Virus record (IMG/VR): IMGVR_UViG_3300021424_000233
Location: 1 to 23,871 of that record
Strand: one strand, 5' to 3'
From: a virus
DNA length: 23,871 nt
In this document: positions 316 through 6,487 of the stretch, in pieces
How the letters are laid out: every line of letters begins with the position of its first letter
Position numbering within the stretch: the stretch's first letter is position 1
Translations under genes and position numbers: made by a program
The notes under the pieces: generated by a model
Seen by the model: only the letters and a program-made list of their open reading frames with translations
The model's database searches: none
What the model was told of the DNA's origin: nothing

Positions 316-789
316 ATGTCTTACATTCAACATTCTGGATACGGTTATCGCAAAGTCCTCTGTGAGAATGTTACCTCTTGGTTTATGAATAAGTTTCTGT
401 CCCGACACAAAGTTGGAGTGGAAATCTTACATCGAGGACTAAATCGAGAAGGTGTTTATGGGTATTGTGATTTCGTGGATGATAATTCTAGGCGTCCACG
501 ACACTTTTTGATTGAATTGAATACTCACCTGGACGAGGAGTTGTATGTAAAAACTCTTTTGCATGAATTGACTCATCTTCGCCAATGGGTGATGGGTTCA
601 CTGCAACTTCGTCGTGGAAAAATGTGTTATTGTAAAGAACCAGTCGAAAAGTACGACTATTGGCATCAACCACACGAAATTGAAGCAAGAGAACAAGAAG
701 AAACACTTTATGAACAATACCTGCAAGAAGTGTGTGGGGTTCGTATCAACAATTCCTTTGTGAGAACAGTCTCCAGGCACCTGTTGTGA
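316..789 (+). CDS. SprT-like zinc metallopeptidase domain protein
   Basis: This 157-residue protein carries the zinc-peptidase signature HELTH at residues 83-87 (two histidine ligands and the catalytic glutamate), preceded by a helix-like YVKTLL. A later HEIEAR segment (residues 120-125), within YWHQPHEIEAREQEE, offers a glutamate or histidine that could be the third metal ligand. The layout resembles SprT/DUF45-like minigluzincins; related proteins occur in cyanomyoviruses. SprT/SPRTN relatives cleave proteins crosslinked to DNA, but the substrate here is unknown. I chose ATG 316 because GGGGG lies 5-9 bases upstream; a TTG at 295 is the only in-frame alternative of note. The stop codon overlaps the first arm of the repeated promoter element at 785. 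Confidence 0.88.
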   Translation: MSYIQHSGYGYRKVLCENVTSWFMNKFLSRHKVGVEILHRGLNREGVYGYCDFVDDNSRRPRHFLIELNTHLDEELYVKTLLHELTHLRQWVMGSLQLRRGKMCYCKEPVEKYDYWHQPHEIEAREQEETLYEQYLQEVCGVRINNSFVRTVSRHLL

Positions 790-842
790 CAGTTGAAAAG
801 GTGGCACAAGGTATGAGCACAGTGCTCAAAACCGTGTATTCT
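785..842 (+). promoter_or_regulatory. Repeated promoter-like element, copy 1
   Basis: TGTGACA (785-791) and TGGCACA (802-808) form an imperfect inverted repeat with starts 17 bases apart. A perfect 13-base palindrome GAGCACAGTGCTC lies at 815-827. The -10-like TATTCT lies at 837-842. No TTGACA-like -35 box is present at 17-base spacing (TGAGCA sits there), which fits a promoter needing an activator. It overlaps the end of the peptidase gene and stands 24 bases before the start codon at 867. Three other copies have the same internal distances. Confidence 0.7.
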
Positions 843-874
843 ATAGAAGTTCAAGGGATTTCACCCATGACTGA
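833..874 (+). repeat. Perfect 42-base direct repeat, unit 1 (-10 box, leader, start codon)
   Basis: These 42 bases are identical to 1557-1598. The unit spans the TATTCT box, the 5' leader with AAGGG, and the first codons ATG ACT plus two bases of a third. The flanking bases and the downstream proteins differ, so the unit looks like a duplicated expression cassette front. Confidence 0.9.
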
Positions 875-1130
875 GTTTCCCACACTACAATCCAAGGACG
901 GCACAATGCTCGTAGGATTTTATCCTGTTCAGACGCCATTCGGTGACATTTCAGAAGAGTGGTGCCTACAAATCTTGTCTTGGAAAGGTATCGATCAGAT
1001 CAGCAAAAAGTATCTGAATCGTGTTGAAAAGTCTCTCGCTATTCGTGACAGACTCGCACATGATTACATCCTGACTGGTGACAATCAAGATTTCCCCCAA
1101 CTTGGCAATCCTTTCTACGGTGCAGTCTGA
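867..1130 (+). CDS. Small protein of unknown function, first gene after element copy 1
   Basis: The 87-residue product begins MTEFPTLQSKDGTMLVGFYP and ends DFPQLGNPFYGAV. It contains a charged middle part (KKYLNRVEKSLAIRDRLAHD). I see no membrane segment or catalytic motif and do not recognise a function. The start at 867 is preceded by AAGGG (853-857) with 9 bases of spacing and lies downstream of the predicted transcription start, near 849. An upstream in-frame ATG (813) lies inside the promoter element and is less likely. The stop TGA at 1128-1130 overlaps the next gene's ATG by one base, suggesting translational coupling. Confidence 0.72.
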   Translation: MTEFPTLQSKDGTMLVGFYPVQTPFGDISEEWCLQILSWKGIDQISKKYLNRVEKSLAIRDRLAHDYILTGDNQDFPQLGNPFYGAV

Positions 1131-1330
1131 TGCAATTCCAAGTGACTGCCATTGAGTATGATTTCACTGGCGCTGAGGATGAGATTACAGATGCTGAGAT
1201 GAATGACATCATTGATGATACAATAGGACACATCTGGGAGGCAGATGATGAAGATGATCTCATTGAAGAGATCACTTCATGGACTGGTTGGTGTATTAAA
1301 TCGATTGATTATCGTCATGTGTTGGTTTAA
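1130..1330 (+). CDS. Conserved acidic small cyanophage protein
   Basis: This 66-residue protein has a strongly acidic centre (WEADDEDDLIEEI) and a C-terminal TGWCIKSIDYRHVL. I recognise the combination FQVTAIE at the start, ADDEDDLIEEIT in the middle and GWCIKSIDY at the end from memory as a widespread cyanomyovirus hypothetical family. No function is known. It overlaps the previous gene by one base (TGATG), so it is probably co-transcribed and coupled with it from element copy 1. Confidence 0.85.
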   Translation: MQFQVTAIEYDFTGAEDEITDAEMNDIIDDTIGHIWEADDEDDLIEEITSWTGWCIKSIDYRHVLV

Positions 1331-1333
1331 TCA

Positions 1334-1483
1334 ATGAAACGCAAATCTCTGACTTTTAAGAAACTCAATTCCATGAAAGTTCTCACACTTGTCTTCATTG
1401 TAGCACTGTTTCTTTCACCCTCTGTTCGATCATTGACTGCGAACACTTTACACACTGTTGCTGACATTATCCAACCCCAATGA
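1334..1483 (+). CDS. Small predicted membrane or secreted peptide
   Basis: The 49-residue product has a basic start (MKRKSLTFKK) followed by a hydrophobic run of about 15 residues (residues 16-30, VLTLVFIVALFLSPS) and a short polar tail ending DIIQPQ. This is the shape of a single transmembrane helix or uncleaved signal anchor. Small proteins with a hydrophobic core and a TANTL-x-TVAD-like tail are familiar to me from cyanophages, without known role. A second Met at residue 14 could also serve as start. It follows the previous gene by three bases. Confidence 0.72.
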   Translation: MKRKSLTFKKLNSMKVLTLVFIVALFLSPSVRSLTANTLHTVADIIQPQ

Positions 1484-1524
1484 TTGAAACTGATTATCAC
1501 ATGGAAGATGTGACACCTGACTAA
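1480..1524 (+). CDS. Possible 14-residue micro-ORF
   Basis: An ATG at 1480 overlaps the stop of the previous gene in the ATGA manner and opens a frame encoding MIETDYHMEDVTPD. The first arm of element copy 2 (TGTGACA, 1509-1515) lies inside it. The overlap style matches the other genes here, but the product is too short to judge. It may be chance or a translated leader. Confidence 0.25.
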   Translation: MIETDYHMEDVTPD

Positions 1525-1566
1525 GTGGCACAGTAAATCTCCACGGCACCCAGATTCGTGTATTCT
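1509..1566 (+). promoter_or_regulatory. Repeated promoter-like element, copy 2
   Basis: TGTGACA (1509-1515), TGGCACA (1526-1532) and TATTCT (1561-1566) have exactly the distances seen in the other copies. The palindrome found in copy 1 is degenerate here (CTCCACGGCACCC). From 1557 on, the sequence is identical to copy 1 through the start codon of the following gene. Its position between two gene groups supports a promoter role. Confidence 0.7.
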
Positions 1567-1598
1567 ATAGAAGTTCAAGGGATTTCACCCATGACTGA
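1557..1598 (+). repeat. Perfect 42-base direct repeat, unit 2 (-10 box, leader, start codon)
   Basis: This is the second unit of the repeat at 833-874, with no mismatch. It gives the gene at 1591 the same leader and the same first two codons as the gene at 867, 724 bases upstream. Confidence 0.9.
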
Positions 1599-1863
1599 CA
1601 CACACATTCTCATCAATTTGGGGCGTCGTCATCACTTCAATGTGCTTGATGTTGAGATTATCAAAGAGACTGAAAAAGCAATTCAGTTTCGATCAGTATT
1701 CAACACACATCATACACTTTGGATGCCAAAGAAAGCACTTCGTGAATGTAACGAAGTTCCTGGTTTGTTTAATCTTCAATCATGGTTCCGATTTGATGAA
1801 TGGGGTGCTAAGTTTCTTGGGCACAACATGCGTCACACAATGTCAACAACCTGGATTCGTTGA
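1591..1863 (+). CDS. Conserved small protein of unknown function, first gene after element copy 2
   Basis: The 90-residue product starts MTDTHILINLGRRHHFNVLD, has a KETEKAIQF stretch and a tryptophan-rich second half (LWMPKKAL, LQSWFRFDEWG). The ILINLGRR-HxFNVLDVEI opening seems familiar from cyanophages, but I cannot name a function. The start is fixed by the shared leader: AAGGG at 1577-1581 with 9-base spacing, identical to the gene at 867. It is followed after seven bases by the gene at 1871. Confidence 0.82.
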   Translation: MTDTHILINLGRRHHFNVLDVEIIKETEKAIQFRSVFNTHHTLWMPKKALRECNEVPGLFNLQSWFRFDEWGAKFLGHNMRHTMSTTWIR

Positions 1864-1870
1864 GGTTATC

Positions 1871-2059
1871 ATGAACACTGCATTTGTCACACCAAAGAGT
1901 AAGAAAGCACGCAACAGATTCTGTAATCTAATGGAATCAGAATCTGAGTGTATTGTTGAACAAAACAAAGGCAATCGTGTCTTTCTTCGTTCACTCAATG
2001 GCAAAAACTTTTTCTGGGTAAATCTACACAACGATTCTGATTGGGAGGTTGAGTTCTAA
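1871..2059 (+). CDS. Conserved small basic protein
   Basis: The 62-residue product has a basic N-terminal part (TPKSKKARNRFCNLM) and a C-terminal part with FFWVNLHNDSDWEVEF. I recognise this TAFVTPK-x-KKARNR ... HNDSDWxVEF type as a recurring cyanomyovirus hypothetical protein. Its role is unknown. GAGGT at 1862-1866 provides a ribosome binding site. The stop TAA (2057-2059) overlaps the next ATG by one base. Confidence 0.85.
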   Translation: MNTAFVTPKSKKARNRFCNLMESESECIVEQNKGNRVFLRSLNGKNFFWVNLHNDSDWEVEF

Positions 2060-2223
2060 TGAACACTTCTACAATTTCACTCACTTTTGATAAAACATCT
2101 GTCAATCCTGTGATGTTGGAGCAAGCACTTTATCAGTTGTTTGATCTTCTGAAGATTGAGATTTTAGAAAGTGAAGTCACCAATGTCACACCAGAAGAAA
2201 ATGCACAAGTATTTGGTGGTTGA
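2059..2223 (+). CDS. Small protein of unknown function
   Basis: This 54-residue product is coupled to the previous gene by a TAATG overlap. It opens with MNTSTISLTFDKTSVNPVML and holds a likely amphipathic helix (EQALYQLFDLLKIEILE). No motif suggests a function. Confidence comes from the tight packing on both sides (the next ATG follows its stop by one base). Confidence 0.72.
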   Translation: MNTSTISLTFDKTSVNPVMLEQALYQLFDLLKIEILESEVTNVTPEENAQVFGG

Positions 2224-2224
2224 A

Positions 2225-2401
2225 ATGACACAAACACAACTGCTTCGTTGTATTGAACAACAACTGGACAATTTACAATCAATCAATCAAATGTGTTTTG
2301 ATTATTGGATGAGTGAATTGTGTGATGAGAATGATGAACTGATTGCAGAAAAGTGTAGTGCTGATGTTCTCTCTCAGATTGAACGAGATGTGTATGATTA
2401 A
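2225..2401 (+). CDS. Small acidic protein of unknown function
   Basis: The 58-residue product begins MTQTQLLRCIEQQLDNL and ends SQIERDVYD. It is glutamine- and acid-rich and probably helical. An in-frame ATG at 2171 would lie well inside the previous gene, so I chose 2225, one base after that gene's stop. Function not recognised. Confidence 0.75.
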   Translation: MTQTQLLRCIEQQLDNLQSINQMCFDYWMSELCDENDELIAEKCSADVLSQIERDVYD

Positions 2402-2470
2402 CTGAAGTAATTTGTCCTGAGTTATGACATTAAACTGATTCATCTGTTCTCTACTTTTTCTTTTCTGATT

Positions 2471-2569
2471 ATGACCCGTTCGATGATTCTTGCACTTCTT
2501 GCACAAGGTAACACTGGCAATGAGATTCTGCAGATTCTTGATACCATCGTGGAGGAAGTGAAAGGTTAA
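2471..2569 (+). CDS. Conserved cyanophage micro-protein with TGNEIL motif
   Basis: The 32-residue product, starting MTRSMILALLAQGNTGNEIL and ending LDTIVEEVKG, has the LAQGNTGNEILxILDxI wording that I know from very small cyanophage proteins and from some host small proteins. It is likely one helix-turn-helix-like hairpin. Role unknown. It is the last gene before the terminator at 2575. Confidence 0.75.
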   Translation: MTRSMILALLAQGNTGNEILQILDTIVEEVKG

Positions 2570-2574
2570 TGAAT

Positions 2575-2603
2575 AAGGAGGAGTATCACAACTCCTCCTT
2601 TTT
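2575..2603 (+). terminator. Rho-independent terminator
   Basis: A 10-base stem AAGGAGGAGT (2575-2584) and ACTCCTCCTT (2591-2600) with a 6-base loop continues into further T residues. It lies five bases after the stop at 2567-2569 and just before element copy 3, so it closes the transcription unit begun at copy 2. Confidence 0.9.
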
Positions 2604-2614
2604 AGTTGATACCA

Positions 2615-2672
2615 TGTGCCAATAAATGTAGTGGCACAATCAATGAGCACAGTGCTTAAAATCGTGTATTCT
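2615..2672 (+). promoter_or_regulatory. Repeated promoter-like element, copy 3
   Basis: TGTGCCA (2615-2621) and TGGCACA (2632-2638) are perfect inverted arms with starts 17 bases apart. A near-palindrome GAGCACAGTGCTT lies at 2645-2657 and TATTCT at 2667-2672. It sits directly after a terminator and 27 bases before the next start codon, which is the position expected for a promoter. Confidence 0.75.
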
Positions 2673-2699
2673 ATAAAAGTCGAAAACAACACAACCGAC

Positions 2700-2879
2700 A
2701 TGTTTGCTGTTCTTCCCACTTCCACTGATTTCTGCAAAGATGATGCAGAATGGTACACTGATTTGGAACATGCTTATGATGTAGCATTTGACTGGAGCGT
2801 AGATCTTCATGGAGATCGTGTTAATGTCTATGAAGTTCGTGGTGGTAAGTTCATTAAACTGACTGAGGTGTTTGCATGA
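2700..2879 (+). CDS. Conserved small protein, first gene after element copy 3
   Basis: The 59-residue product starts MFAVLPTSTDF and contains AYDVAFDWSVDLHGDRVNVY followed by EVRGGKFIKLTEVFA. The YDxAFD ... HGxRVNVYEVRGGK wording is familiar from small cyanomyovirus proteins of unknown role. I chose ATG 2700 because an upstream in-frame ATG (2643) lies inside the promoter element, before the predicted transcription start. The stop overlaps the next gene by four bases (ATGA). Confidence 0.8.
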   Translation: MFAVLPTSTDFCKDDAEWYTDLEHAYDVAFDWSVDLHGDRVNVYEVRGGKFIKLTEVFA

Positions 2880-3037
2880 AGAACTATCGTATTCGAGTTG
2901 AAACCTACGACGGATGTGTGACTGTTTGGTATGAGAAATCAAAAGCAATTCGTGCTTGTGATTTTATCTCCAATCGTGTCTACAATCAACTCTGTGGATT
3001 AAACATTAAAGAGATTTCTGTGACTCCTTCCGTATGA
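2876..3037 (+). CDS. Small protein of unknown function
   Basis: The 53-residue product begins MKNYRIRVETYDGCVTVWYE and ends KEISVTPSV. It has alternating hydrophobic residues suggesting a small beta-rich fold, and three cysteines that do not form a recognisable metal motif. ATGA overlaps on both sides tie it into the copy 3 transcription unit. Confidence 0.76.
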   Translation: MKNYRIRVETYDGCVTVWYEKSKAIRACDFISNRVYNQLCGLNIKEISVTPSV

Positions 3038-3207
3038 ACAACACCGACATTCTTTCCGTCCGTGAACAAATCCAAGAGGACATCGACTGTATCATCGAAG
3101 GTTTCTTTTATGATACTTGGGGCGATGAATACAACGAAGACAAGAACGAATTAGTTCGCGTCCTTTGTGATTCCGTCTGCAACAACTTCACTAAACTTCT
3201 GAACTGA
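3034..3207 (+). CDS. Small acidic protein of unknown function
   Basis: The 57-residue product begins MNNTDILSVREQIQEDIDCI and ends CNNFTKLLN. It is acidic (EYNEDKNEL) and probably helical. Proteins with an IxxxREQIQxDID start occur in cyanophages as I remember them. It starts in the ATGA overlap with the preceding gene. Confidence 0.77.
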   Translation: MNNTDILSVREQIQEDIDCIIEGFFYDTWGDEYNEDKNELVRVLCDSVCNNFTKLLN

Positions 3208-3218
3208 ATTAAAATAGT

Positions 3219-3398
3219 ATGAAAACCCAACTCCAACAAGATTGCCTCTCCCTTGCAGAACAAATCGCTGATGAAATCAATGGTAATTTGTTCTATGTTC
3301 CTGATGAAGATGTAGATCAACTGTTATCTCAACTCACTGAAGATAATGTAGAAGAGATTGCATCTGAACTTGCGAACTTAGCGCATTGGTATAACTGA
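3219..3398 (+). CDS. Small acidic helical protein of unknown function
   Basis: The 59-residue product begins MKTQLQQDCLSLAEQIADEI and ends LANLAHWYN, with an acidic middle (VPDEDVDQLL, TEDNVEEIASEL). I find no functional motif. Eleven bases separate it from the previous gene and no strong ribosome binding site is visible. Confidence 0.7.
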   Translation: MKTQLQQDCLSLAEQIADEINGNLFYVPDEDVDQLLSQLTEDNVEEIASELANLAHWYN

Positions 3399-3436
3399 AT
3401 CTTTCCTCTTAACTAACACTCAAACACTGAAACATC

Positions 3437-3616
3437 ATGAACCGTCAAGAACTTCTGGAAGCATACGTTGATCGTTTGCTTGAGAACATGTCCACCAAAG
3501 ATTTGATGCGTATTGTAGGCGATCAGATCGAAGAAAACCTCTCTGGTTATAGCGATGAGGAACTGATTGCAGAGGTTTCAGAATACTATCCCGAACTGAT
3601 TGAGGAGACTAACTGA
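3437..3616 (+). CDS. Conserved small acidic protein
   Basis: The 59-residue product begins MNRQELLEAYVDRLLENMST and ends EVSEYYPELIEETN. The pattern ELLxxYVxxxLExM ... YSDEELIxEVxEYYPEL matches a small cyanomyovirus family I recall; no function is known. The stop overlaps the next ATG by one base (TGATG). Confidence 0.82.
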   Translation: MNRQELLEAYVDRLLENMSTKDLMRIVGDQIEENLSGYSDEELIAEVSEYYPELIEETN

Positions 3617-3744
3617 TGTTCACGATTCGCTACTTCACACCGTATCAGCAACAGTGGAGAACACAAAGTTTCTCTACACTTGATGAAGCAAATCGAATGA
3701 TAGATTTCTATCGTTCTTGTGGTTCACCTGCATCTCTAGTTTGA
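3616..3744 (+). CDS. Conserved micro-protein
   Basis: The 42-residue product begins MFTIRYFTPYQQQWRTQSFS and ends YRSCGSPASLV. The YTIRYFTP ... EAxRMIxFYRSCG wording is typical of a very small cyanophage protein family as I recall it. It is translationally coupled to the previous gene by a one-base overlap. Role unknown. Confidence 0.82.
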   Translation: MFTIRYFTPYQQQWRTQSFSTLDEANRMIDFYRSCGSPASLV

Positions 3745-3751
3745 TACACAA

Positions 3752-3928
3752 ATGAGAACACATTGCATTGCATCAAACATTCAATCTAAACAGTATGAAT
3801 GGTTCGTTTATGAAAACAATCGTCTCTGGAAGTATAATCAAACACCTTTATCTTTTACAGCAGTGGAGTTAGCAGGATGGTATGGTGAAAGGTATAGTGA
3901 AGAGGTGAATGTACCAGTGATTGATTAA
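3752..3928 (+). CDS. Small protein of unknown function, last of the array
   Basis: The 58-residue product begins MRTHCIASNIQSKQYEWFVY and ends EEVNVPVID. It is rich in aromatic residues (WFVYENNRLWKY). No motif is recognised and no clear ribosome binding site is present. It lies between the gene ending at 3744 and the terminator at 3937, which supports it being the last gene of the unit. Confidence 0.66.
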   Translation: MRTHCIASNIQSKQYEWFVYENNRLWKYNQTPLSFTAVELAGWYGERYSEEVNVPVID

Positions 3929-3936
3929 CATTTAAC

Positions 3937-3961
3937 AAGGGGTGATTACAACCCCTTTTTT
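3937..3961 (+). terminator. Rho-independent terminator
   Basis: AAGGGGT (3937-3943), loop GATTACA, ACCCCTT (3951-3957), then four more T residues. It follows the stop at 3926-3928 and closes the small-gene array before a gene-free stretch. Confidence 0.92.
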
Positions 3962-4256
3962 AATGCTTTTTGAGTGATTTATGATTAAAAATGTATTAAA
4001 ATCAATTAAAAATGTATTATTAAATATAAACGTGCTTTTGTAATCATTCTCAATAAGTGTTAGTAATTGAGAATCAATTAGGTGTATTGTTGAGAATTAG
4101 GGGTGCATTTATAGTCAATTAAATGTATCTGGGAGTCGTTATCTTTGCGTGCATTGTATCATCACGCCGCCAAAATGTCAAGTCCCCCAGCGTCACAAAA
4201 TCCCCACAATCCTGTCACAAAAATCCACCAACCGCACATAAATACTCTCCAGGACG
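3962..4256. other. Gene-free stretch with repeats; no coding region seen
   Basis: The first part (to about 4120) is very AT-rich and contains ATTAAAAATGTATTA twice, plus a hairpin of ATTCTCAAT (4046-4054) and ATTGAGAAT (4066-4074), with a third TTGAGAAT at 4090-4097. The second part (about 4150-4250) is poor in G on this strand and holds GTCACAAAATCC (4192-4203) and GTCACAAAAATCC (4214-4226), 22 bases apart. I see no tRNA and no credible reading frame. It could be regulatory, a recombination junction or a replication-related site; the sequence alone does not decide. Confidence 0.6.
4046..4074. repeat. Inverted repeat ATTCTCAAT / ATTGAGAAT
   Basis: Two perfect 9-base arms are separated by 11 bases, with a further same-sense half site TTGAGAAT at 4090-4097. 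There is no T-run after the stem, so it is not a standard terminator. It may be a binding site for a dimeric protein. Confidence 0.6.
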
Positions 4257-4285
4257 TTGACAATAATTCCCAGGTATCTTAGACT
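4257..4285 (+). promoter_or_regulatory. Sigma70-type promoter
   Basis: A consensus -35 TTGACA (4257-4262), a 17-base spacer and TAGACT (4280-4285) as -10 lie just before the gene at 4313. The leader would be about 20 bases and carries AAGGAG. This is a host-type early promoter unlike the repeated TATTCT elements. Confidence 0.65.
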
Positions 4286-4312
4286 ATCCAAAGAACACCA
4301 AGGAGCGCACTT

Positions 4313-4486
4313 ATGTCAGTTGCCTATTCACAAGCACAGAAAGTACGTTATAGAATCACCCTAGACATTTCTGCGTTTCCTGACTTCGATCCACACCAAA
4401 TTGACTGGGAGAAGTTATTCAAACTGGAACCTGCAGAAAAGTGTGAAGCATACGTGGAAGACTTAAGTACACCTGATAGATGGTAA
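4313..4486 (+). CDS. Conserved small cyanophage protein
   Basis: The 57-residue product begins MSVAYSQAQKVRYRITLDIS and contains FPDFDPHQIDWEKLFKLE and AYVEDL. The YSQxQKVRYRxTLD ... DFDPHQIDW wording is one I recognise from cyanomyoviruses, function unknown. It has a strong ribosome binding site AAGGAG (4300-4305) seven bases before the ATG, and its own sigma70-type promoter. It stands alone, between the gene-free stretch and element copy 4. Confidence 0.87.
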   Translation: MSVAYSQAQKVRYRITLDISAFPDFDPHQIDWEKLFKLEPAEKCEAYVEDLSTPDRW

Positions 4487-4509
4487 GTTGCGTCTGATTG
4501 TTTATACGA

Positions 4510-4567
4510 TGTGCCACAAGTATTAGTGGCACAATAAAAGAGCACAGCACTCTAGATCTGGTATTCT
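4510..4567 (+). promoter_or_regulatory. Repeated promoter-like element, copy 4
   Basis: TGTGCCA (4510-4516) and TGGCACA (4527-4533) are perfect inverted arms; with neighbouring bases the stem is 8 bases (TGTGCCAC/GTGGCACA). GAGCACAGCACTC lies at 4540-4552 and TATTCT at 4562-4567, all at the same distances as in the other copies. Downstream of the -10 box it diverges from the other three. It precedes the gene at 4620. Confidence 0.72.
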
Positions 4568-4619: not shown

Positions 4620-4937
4620 ATGCGTATCATCGAAGAACAGATGAACACTGCAATCAATGAGTGTATTGATTGGAAGAATAGCAACACTTCAGTGATGTAT
4701 TCTCCCGAACGTAATGCTTCCTATGTGTATCTGCACGGCAATCACATTGCTACCATTGGTGATACCTTTGTTGAACTTTATACCTGTGGGTATTATACAA
4801 ACACCACCAAGTCTCGCCTCAATGCTATACTTGCAGATCATGGAAATGGTGCCCGTGTTTATCAGAAACGTGGTGAGTGGTTTGTGAGTGATAGTGGCAA
4901 CACAGTTCCGTTCACTGAAGGTATGGTGCTTAATTGA
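4620..4937 (+). CDS. Conserved cyanophage protein of unknown function, after element copy 4
   Basis: The 105-residue product begins MRIIEEQMNTAINECIDWKN and contains YVYLHGNHIATIGD, TTKSRLNAIL and KRGEWFVSDSGNTVPFTEGM. I recognise the YLHGNxIAxxGD ... NTTKSRLNAL ... GEWFVS layout from cyanomyoviruses; no function is known. ATG 4620 is preferred because the frame upstream (from TTG 4572) runs into the predicted promoter and has no good ribosome binding site. A Met at residue 8 (ATG 4641) is an alternative start. Confidence 0.86.
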   Translation: MRIIEEQMNTAINECIDWKNSNTSVMYSPERNASYVYLHGNHIATIGDTFVELYTCGYYTNTTKSRLNAILADHGNGARVYQKRGEWFVSDSGNTVPFTEGMVLN

Positions 4938-4949
4938 TACGAACTGCGT

Positions 4950-4989
4950 GGGGCAGTTGTTGACACTCTGCCCCCGTATGTGCTATAAT
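4950..4989 (+). promoter_or_regulatory. Strong sigma70-type promoter overlapped by an inverted repeat
   Basis: Perfect TTGACA (4960-4965), 18-base spacer, perfect TATAAT (4984-4989). The -35 box lies in the loop between GGGGCAG (4950-4956) and CTGCCCC (4968-4974), a perfect 7-base inverted repeat with 11 bases between arms. The repeat could be an operator for a repressor or a hairpin ending the upstream transcript. It has no T-run, which favours the operator reading. Confidence 0.8.
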
Positions 4990-6349: not shown

Positions 6350-6487
6350 ATGGCTAAAGGACAGAATAGAGTTATATTTGAACCTGGAGCACCTAAGAAA
6401 ACTCGTCAAGGGCGTTCTCCTCGAACTCTTCTCTCGGCAACTTCTCGTAATGGACGTAAAAAAAAGTATCGCGGACAGGGTAAATAG
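6350..6487 (+). CDS. Conserved tiny basic protein
   Basis: The 45-residue product begins MAKGQNRVIFEPGAPKKTRQ and ends NGRKKKYRGQGK. About a third of its residues are Lys or Arg, with two basic clusters and a TSRNGRKKKYRGQG tail. I recognise it as a recurrent cyanophage mini-protein. A nucleic-acid- or ribosome-binding role is possible from charge alone but not shown. It has a strong ribosome binding site GGAGG (6337-6341), eight bases before the ATG. Confidence 0.88.
   Translation: MAKGQNRVIFEPGAPKKTRQGRSPRTLLSATSRNGRKKKYRGQGK

Follow-up and report, generated by a model that had tools for sequence, protein, structure and literature searches.

The window, that is, the whole stretch of DNA analyzed here, is an entire record, a viral contig of 23,871 bases. 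Judged by its sequence, its source is a T4-like cyanophage, an identity based on baseplate wedge genes, an RGQGK protein, and the nearest isolates; the RGQGK protein is common to nearly all cyanophage Kyanoviridae tested. An Rfam search of the window gave no match, and the exact late box TATAAATA had 0 matches in it. A motif scan of the window detected TGTGMCA-N10-TGGCACA-N28-TATTCT exactly on the + strand at 785-842, 1509-1566, 2615-2672, and 4510-4567. The features of these four copies are as follows.

785-808, + strand: predicted operator of copy 1, TGTGACA-N10-TGGCACA (motif scan, PWM)
814-822, + strand: TGAGCACAG block of copy 1, at -35 to -27, with GCAC in 85 of 114 related copies
837-842, + strand: -10 hexamer of copy 1, TATTCT, with the predicted +1 at G849, followed by T850
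867-1130, + strand: first gene after copy 1, 87 aa, no assigned function, weak phrog_500 similarity
1509-1532, + strand: predicted operator of copy 2, TGTGACA-N10-TGGCACA (motif scan, PWM)
1538-1546, + strand: copy 2 counterpart of the TGAGCACAG block, TCTCCACGG
1561-1566, + strand: -10 hexamer of copy 2, TATTCT, with the predicted +1 at G1573
1591-1863, + strand: first gene after copy 2, 90 aa, no assigned function
2615-2638, + strand: predicted operator of copy 3, TGTGCCA-N10-TGGCACA (motif scan, PWM)
2644-2652, + strand: equivalent of the TGAGCACAG block in copy 3
2667-2672, + strand: -10 hexamer of copy 3, TATTCT, with the predicted +1 at G2679
2700-2879, + strand: first gene after copy 3, 59 aa, no assigned function, opening a small-gene run that extends to 3928
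4510-4533, + strand: predicted operator of copy 4, TGTGCCA-N10-TGGCACA (motif scan, PWM)
4539-4547, + strand: equivalent of the TGAGCACAG block in copy 4, AGAGCACAG
4562-4567, + strand: -10 hexamer of copy 4, TATTCT, with the predicted +1 at G4574
4620-4937, + strand: first gene after copy 4, 105 aa, phrog_554, no assigned function

The preliminary description had reported a four-copy element of constant geometry, and this was confirmed: all four copies are exact, and dinucleotide shuffles yielded 0 matches to the 58-base motif, with a chance expectation of 0. Random occurrences elsewhere, which would have spoken against the element, were absent from the window, as a scan allowing up to 3 mismatches gave no further match beyond the four copies. 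On a PWM built from 114 viral-contig copies, including those of L024, a contig with near-identical copies 1-3, the four copies scored 72-85 and the next-best window site scored below -50, opposite-strand readings of the four operators excepted. Their operator PWM scores of 27.5-34.8 place them in the operator class described below, and the distance from the operator end to the -10 hexamer is 28 bp in 4/4 copies, within the 28-30 bp rule of that class. A terminator-like hairpin at 2575-2600 directly precedes the operator of copy 3, in agreement with the earlier placement of this copy behind a terminator. Copies 1 and 2 have an identical leader in common.

The copies stand ahead of the genes at 867, 1591, 2700, and 4620, as previously described, and the ATGs of these genes lie 18-46 nt past the predicted +1 positions (849, 1573, 2679, and 4574). 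It had been proposed to record the position of the motif relative to gene starts in relatives; an ATG, counted if it opened a frame of at least 35 codons, lies within 45 nt of the -10 hexamer at 98/121 isolate sites, compared with 19% of random positions. In the eight operator-rich genomes, the sites fall mostly in runs of small genes with no assigned function. Those of the window and of Syn9 stand at the head of such runs, and in Syn9, five of the seven strong sites, at 47204, 48558, 49078, 51000, and 52996, lie within a small-gene run at 47-53 kb.

The region around the predicted start was then compared among related copies. The proposed starts carry G then T in all four window copies, and the same dinucleotide is found exactly 7 and 8 nt past the hexamer in 93-94% of related copies; in both -10 classes (TATTCT and TATAAT), +1 is a purine and +2 is T. 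Because a start site is expected at this position, the conserved dinucleotide is independent evidence for a promoter. TTGACA is absent from 4/4 window copies, and in the TATTCT class the mean -35 match at 16-18 bp spacing was 2.7/6, compared with a background of 2.5-2.6, with matches of at least 5/6 in 1/114 copies. These values bear out the earlier reading as a -10-only promoter. Among TATAAT-type operator promoters, a -35 element with at least 5 matches was present in 15/93, so the reliance on the operator may vary. In S-CREM1, an operator-less promoter in the homologous region has TTGACT (one example). Between operator and hexamer, GAGCACAG occurs in copies 1, 3, and 4, and CTCCACGG in copy 2. 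The block itself, noted earlier in three copies, is indeed there and is common in relatives, but the near-palindrome ascribed to it is not conserved: among the 85 related copies having GCAC in the block, only 7 pair at 5/6 positions or better, and a second palindrome was rejected on this basis.

The full 58-mer was found in 116 viral-contig stretches by an exact scan. Open reading frames similar to those of Kyanoviridae isolates were present at 116/117 of the 58-mer loci, and at least three such frames at 108/117. A scan of approximately 85,000 bacterial and archaeal genomes gave one match, in a contig binned as Sphingobacteriales whose open reading frames are cyanophage-like, that is, mis-binned cyanophage DNA. 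The logo of 119 copies shows conservation past the seed, within the arms at offsets 7-16; further conserved parts are TAAATGAGCACAG, placed around -39 to -27, a CCAAAAT stretch of the spacer, and TATTCT. When the spacers were left free (4-20 between the arms and 15-42 to the -10), the scan still peaked at N10 and at N28-30. The pooled distances from the arms to TATTCT were 28 (95), 30 (19), and 29 (9), a tally in which 28 is inflated because the first of the two scans demanded N28 and in which some gap-30 matches are coding-strand chance.

The operator is a 24-bp dyad in which two 10-bp half-sites, TGTGnCAsTT, face each other across 4 bp, with the core GnCASTT. The half-site reads TGTG(A/C)CA(G/C)TT, and its TGTG is sometimes replaced by GTGG or GAGG. 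The operator recurs across T4-like cyanophages, including Syn9, S-PM2, P-SSM2, P-SSM4, and S-SSM7. In isolates, with the distance left free, -10 hexamers were found at offsets of 28, 29, and 30 in 12, 33, and 11 cases, respectively, with about 1.3 expected at each; this clustering is a fairer test of the spacing than the pooled contig tally. The iterated operator model gave 301 matches compared with 3 in reversed sequence, for a model trained on the same genomes and with palindromic sites countable in both orientations. A core-only test on the eight operator-rich whole genomes gave 5-19 sites per genome at gaps of 28-30, where the other gaps predict 0.3-0.8. Strong sites per whole genome numbered 20 in S-SRM01, 17 in P-SSM2, 16 in S-SSM7, 13 in S-PM2, 13 in S-T4 (including some doubles, as the two ends of that record repeat), 10 in P-SSM4, 7 in Syn9, and 7 in DSL-LC02. 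Few or none were found in S-CREM1 (2), S-SM2 (0), and SynMITS9220M01 (0), so the operator is not essential for the lifestyle. No site scoring at least 22 was found in T4, KVP40, the SAR11 phage HTVC008M, Ma-LMM01, or the T7-like Syn5. From the genomes compared, the dyad-operator class, carried by viruses of both marine and lake cyanobacteria, is spread through Kyanoviridae and is not special to the window phage. The suggestion of a phage regulon thus held for its regulon-like repetition, but it was too local, since the class spans the family.

Each copy is likely to be an activator-dependent sigma70-type promoter with a predicted dimer operator, to which host polymerase would be recruited (probability roughly 0.7). 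The dyad would occupy about -64 to -41 with its center near -52.5, consistent with the palindromic arms centered near -52 in the preliminary description, at a fixed 28 bp (28-30 bp in relatives) before TATTCT or TATAAT. A homodimer would bind this operator and contact RNA polymerase through alpha-CTD and/or sigma region 4, and this contact would make up for the absent -35 box. The homodimer may be a regulator that the host already contains at entry, a virion protein, or an early phage protein, each of which agrees with part of the evidence. Transcription is predicted to start at the purine-T located 7 nt past the -10, usually leading straight into a short gene, and clusters of small, probably early, host-takeover genes may be fired together. 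Operator promoters repeated along the early-gene region would form a regulon common to Kyanoviridae cyanophages. We regard as tentative, at slightly under even odds, the stronger version in which one dimeric activator, supplied by the virion or by the host at entry, drives a -10-only regulon throughout Kyanoviridae via the 24-bp operator. If this is true, a single activator, as yet assigned, like its operator, to no known family, would be the cyanophage replacement for takeover by Alt, MotA, and AsiA in T4.

Candidate binding factors were sought in 15 cyanophage genomes. MotA and AsiA were found in none of them, with a positive T4 control and with the window being only a fragment; likewise, none had an Ogr_Delta domain (E. 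coli control positive) or RHH_1 (S. elongatus control positive). Phage-encoded activators of the MotA/AsiA, Ogr/Delta, and RHH types were rejected on this absence, while the positive S. elongatus control leaves room for a host RHH protein. Co-occurrence of genes with the operator gave no clean activator candidate; it pointed to a DUF7201/holin-like protein and to phrog_516, a basic protein of 48 aa, but the latter also occurs in S-SM2, a phage almost devoid of the operator.

That a host cyanobacterial transcription factor reads the operator, much as host PhoB is exploited by phage pstS and further genes of phages, is compatible with the activator-dependent promoter and is nearly an even bet. 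Any gene expressed from the moment of entry depends on a factor that the cell already contains, none of the phage genes follows the operator cleanly in its occurrence, and HTVC008M, the relative that infects SAR11, lacks the operator. However, the full element in the genome collection was confined to the one mis-binned contig of cyanophage DNA, and Syn5, a T7-like phage of the same hosts, does not use the operator. Host PhoB binds to promoters of S-PM2d in vitro (PMC10976474), which also favors a host factor. Cyanophage promoters under host PhoB or NtcA resemble the promoters proposed here in that a dimeric protein binds DNA upstream of a sigma70 promoter and controls phage genes (PMC10976474, PMC3037559), but the operator is unlike the Pho box CTTA-N7-CTTA and the NtcA site GTA-N8-TAC in their consensus forms (PMC3037559).

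The palindrome might instead be a repressor or shut-off site, at which a phage or host dimer lowers expression of the genes later in infection. Dyad operators are typical of repressors, and a location just upstream of a -35 is compatible with repression. In P-SSM2, moreover, a single operator is shared by -10 elements that point in opposite directions (66591/66614), an arrangement seen in many regions under repressor control. However, the site ends at about -41 and overlaps neither the -10 nor the start, its strict spacing from the -10 is what activators typically show, and a bare TATTCT-class promoter would be expected to be weak. We prefer activation, given the missing -35 in this class and the TTGACT of the operator-less S-CREM1 promoter, and consider repression unlikely.

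The arms had also been suggested to act as an RNA hairpin in upstream transcripts. Such a hairpin could be a terminator, a processing site, or a leader, and a 9-bp stem is possible in some copies. This suggestion did not survive, because the arms vary independently at every variable position: no covariation was found, and at these positions symmetric states were no commoner than independence predicts (for example, 53 observed versus 46 expected of 114, and 50 versus 60 of 134). Independent variation is expected of two protein-dimer subunits reading DNA and not of an RNA stem. The stem is also broken in the TGTGACA/TGGCACA copies, the operator keeps a constant distance from the -10, and transcription would start only downstream of it, so a hairpin is very improbable. 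Equally improbable are recently duplicated intergenic repeats with no function, which the leader shared by copies 1 and 2 would suit, since the spacer bases are free to diverge whereas the arms, distance, -10, and start are retained in divergent contigs that total about 1 Mb and in isolates from many genera.

The activator-dependent promoter proposed above has likenesses in known phage systems. Late promoters of P2 and P4 are activated by Ogr/Delta through a dyad, TGT-N12-ACA, centered near -55, and have no -35. Both systems would place a dyad at about -50 to -55 before a -10-only sigma70 promoter of several phage operons; against the P2 consensus, the window operator differs in reading TGT-N18-ACA with a center at -52.5, and its phase differs. 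In T4 middle promoters, a phage-specific element likewise replaces the -35 contact at a sigma70 -10, but there the MotA box lies at -30 and AsiA carries out the appropriation, whereas the cyanophage operator is palindromic and would lie at -64 to -41.

Early genes of Syn9 and P-TIM40 are reportedly under the transcriptional control of a "novel regulatory element," said to be conserved among T4-like cyanophages (Doron et al. 2016). The dyad-operator class is probably this early element, as those phages belong to the same family as the window phage and Syn9 has its seven strong operator sites. The earlier remark that no named factor fits the site still holds, but the early-gene element itself would already have been published. 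The motif is not described in the examined passages of papers citing Doron et al. 2016. Newly defined here are the dyad with its half-site, its spacing of 28-30 bp from the -10, the conserved dinucleotide at the start, the independent variation of the two arms, and the taxonomic limits, together with the TATTCT/GAGCACAG subclass to which the window promoters belong.

Among the viruses of Prochlorococcus and Synechococcus, T4-like cyanophages are abundant. Cyanophage transcriptomes fall into early, middle, and late classes (PMC5082946, PMC5780444), and a review calls it unclear how cyanomyoviruses transcribe their early and middle genes, with Alt, ModA, MotA, and AsiA of T4 missing (PMC2984593). 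Given a precise operator with a defined spacing, hundreds of examples of it, and negative controls that came out clean, the switching of early genes becomes directly testable, and in contigs of uncultured cyanophages such promoters can be recognized by this simple sequence signature. Some operator sites occupy corresponding places in distant phages; for example, Syn9 (127492) and P-SSM2 (129348) both have an operator ahead of the corresponding peptidase gene.

A second promoter class is present in uncultured contigs (L123, L133, L134, L147, L182-L184 and others), with arms identical to those of the first class (TGTGMCA-N10-TGGCACA). A -35-like TAGAC or TTGAC lies about 7 nt past the arms, and TATTCT is located at 30 bp. 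The reverse complement CAAGGGGTCTTGTGCCA is sometimes found on the opposite side, which suggests divergent promoters. In the cyanophage isolate P-SSM2, three operators lie inside ~280 bp (66,330-66,650; L198 4001-4026), and one of them is common to divergent -10 elements, TATTGT (+) and TATAAT (-).

The predicted transcript leaders start with GTTCAAG or GTCGAAA in three of the four window copies and with GTTGG in the remaining one, and GTGG is the leader start in ~40% of the uncultured copies. Several GTGG leaders (among L005, L008, L015, L018 and L023) have a possible 5'-terminal hairpin at the predicted transcript end, such as GTGGGA...TCCCAC.

Two further features of the window were recorded:
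4960-4989, sigma70 promoter with a 12/12 match (TTGACA-18-TATAAT, TG ahead of the -10)
6350-6487, very basic phrog_516-like protein of 45 aa (...TRQG...SATSRN...YRGQGK)

The former, located after the gene behind copy 4, contrasts sharply with the operator promoters. Almost every one of the cyanophage Kyanoviridae tested, S-SM2 among them, conserves the basic protein, which had no match in HTVC008M, T4, KVP40, Ma-LMM01 or Syn5.

Contig L121 (JAAXIF010000060.1), deposited within a Sphingobacteriales metagenome-assembled genome, is actually cyanophage DNA and carries the operator promoter together with relatives of the window genes.
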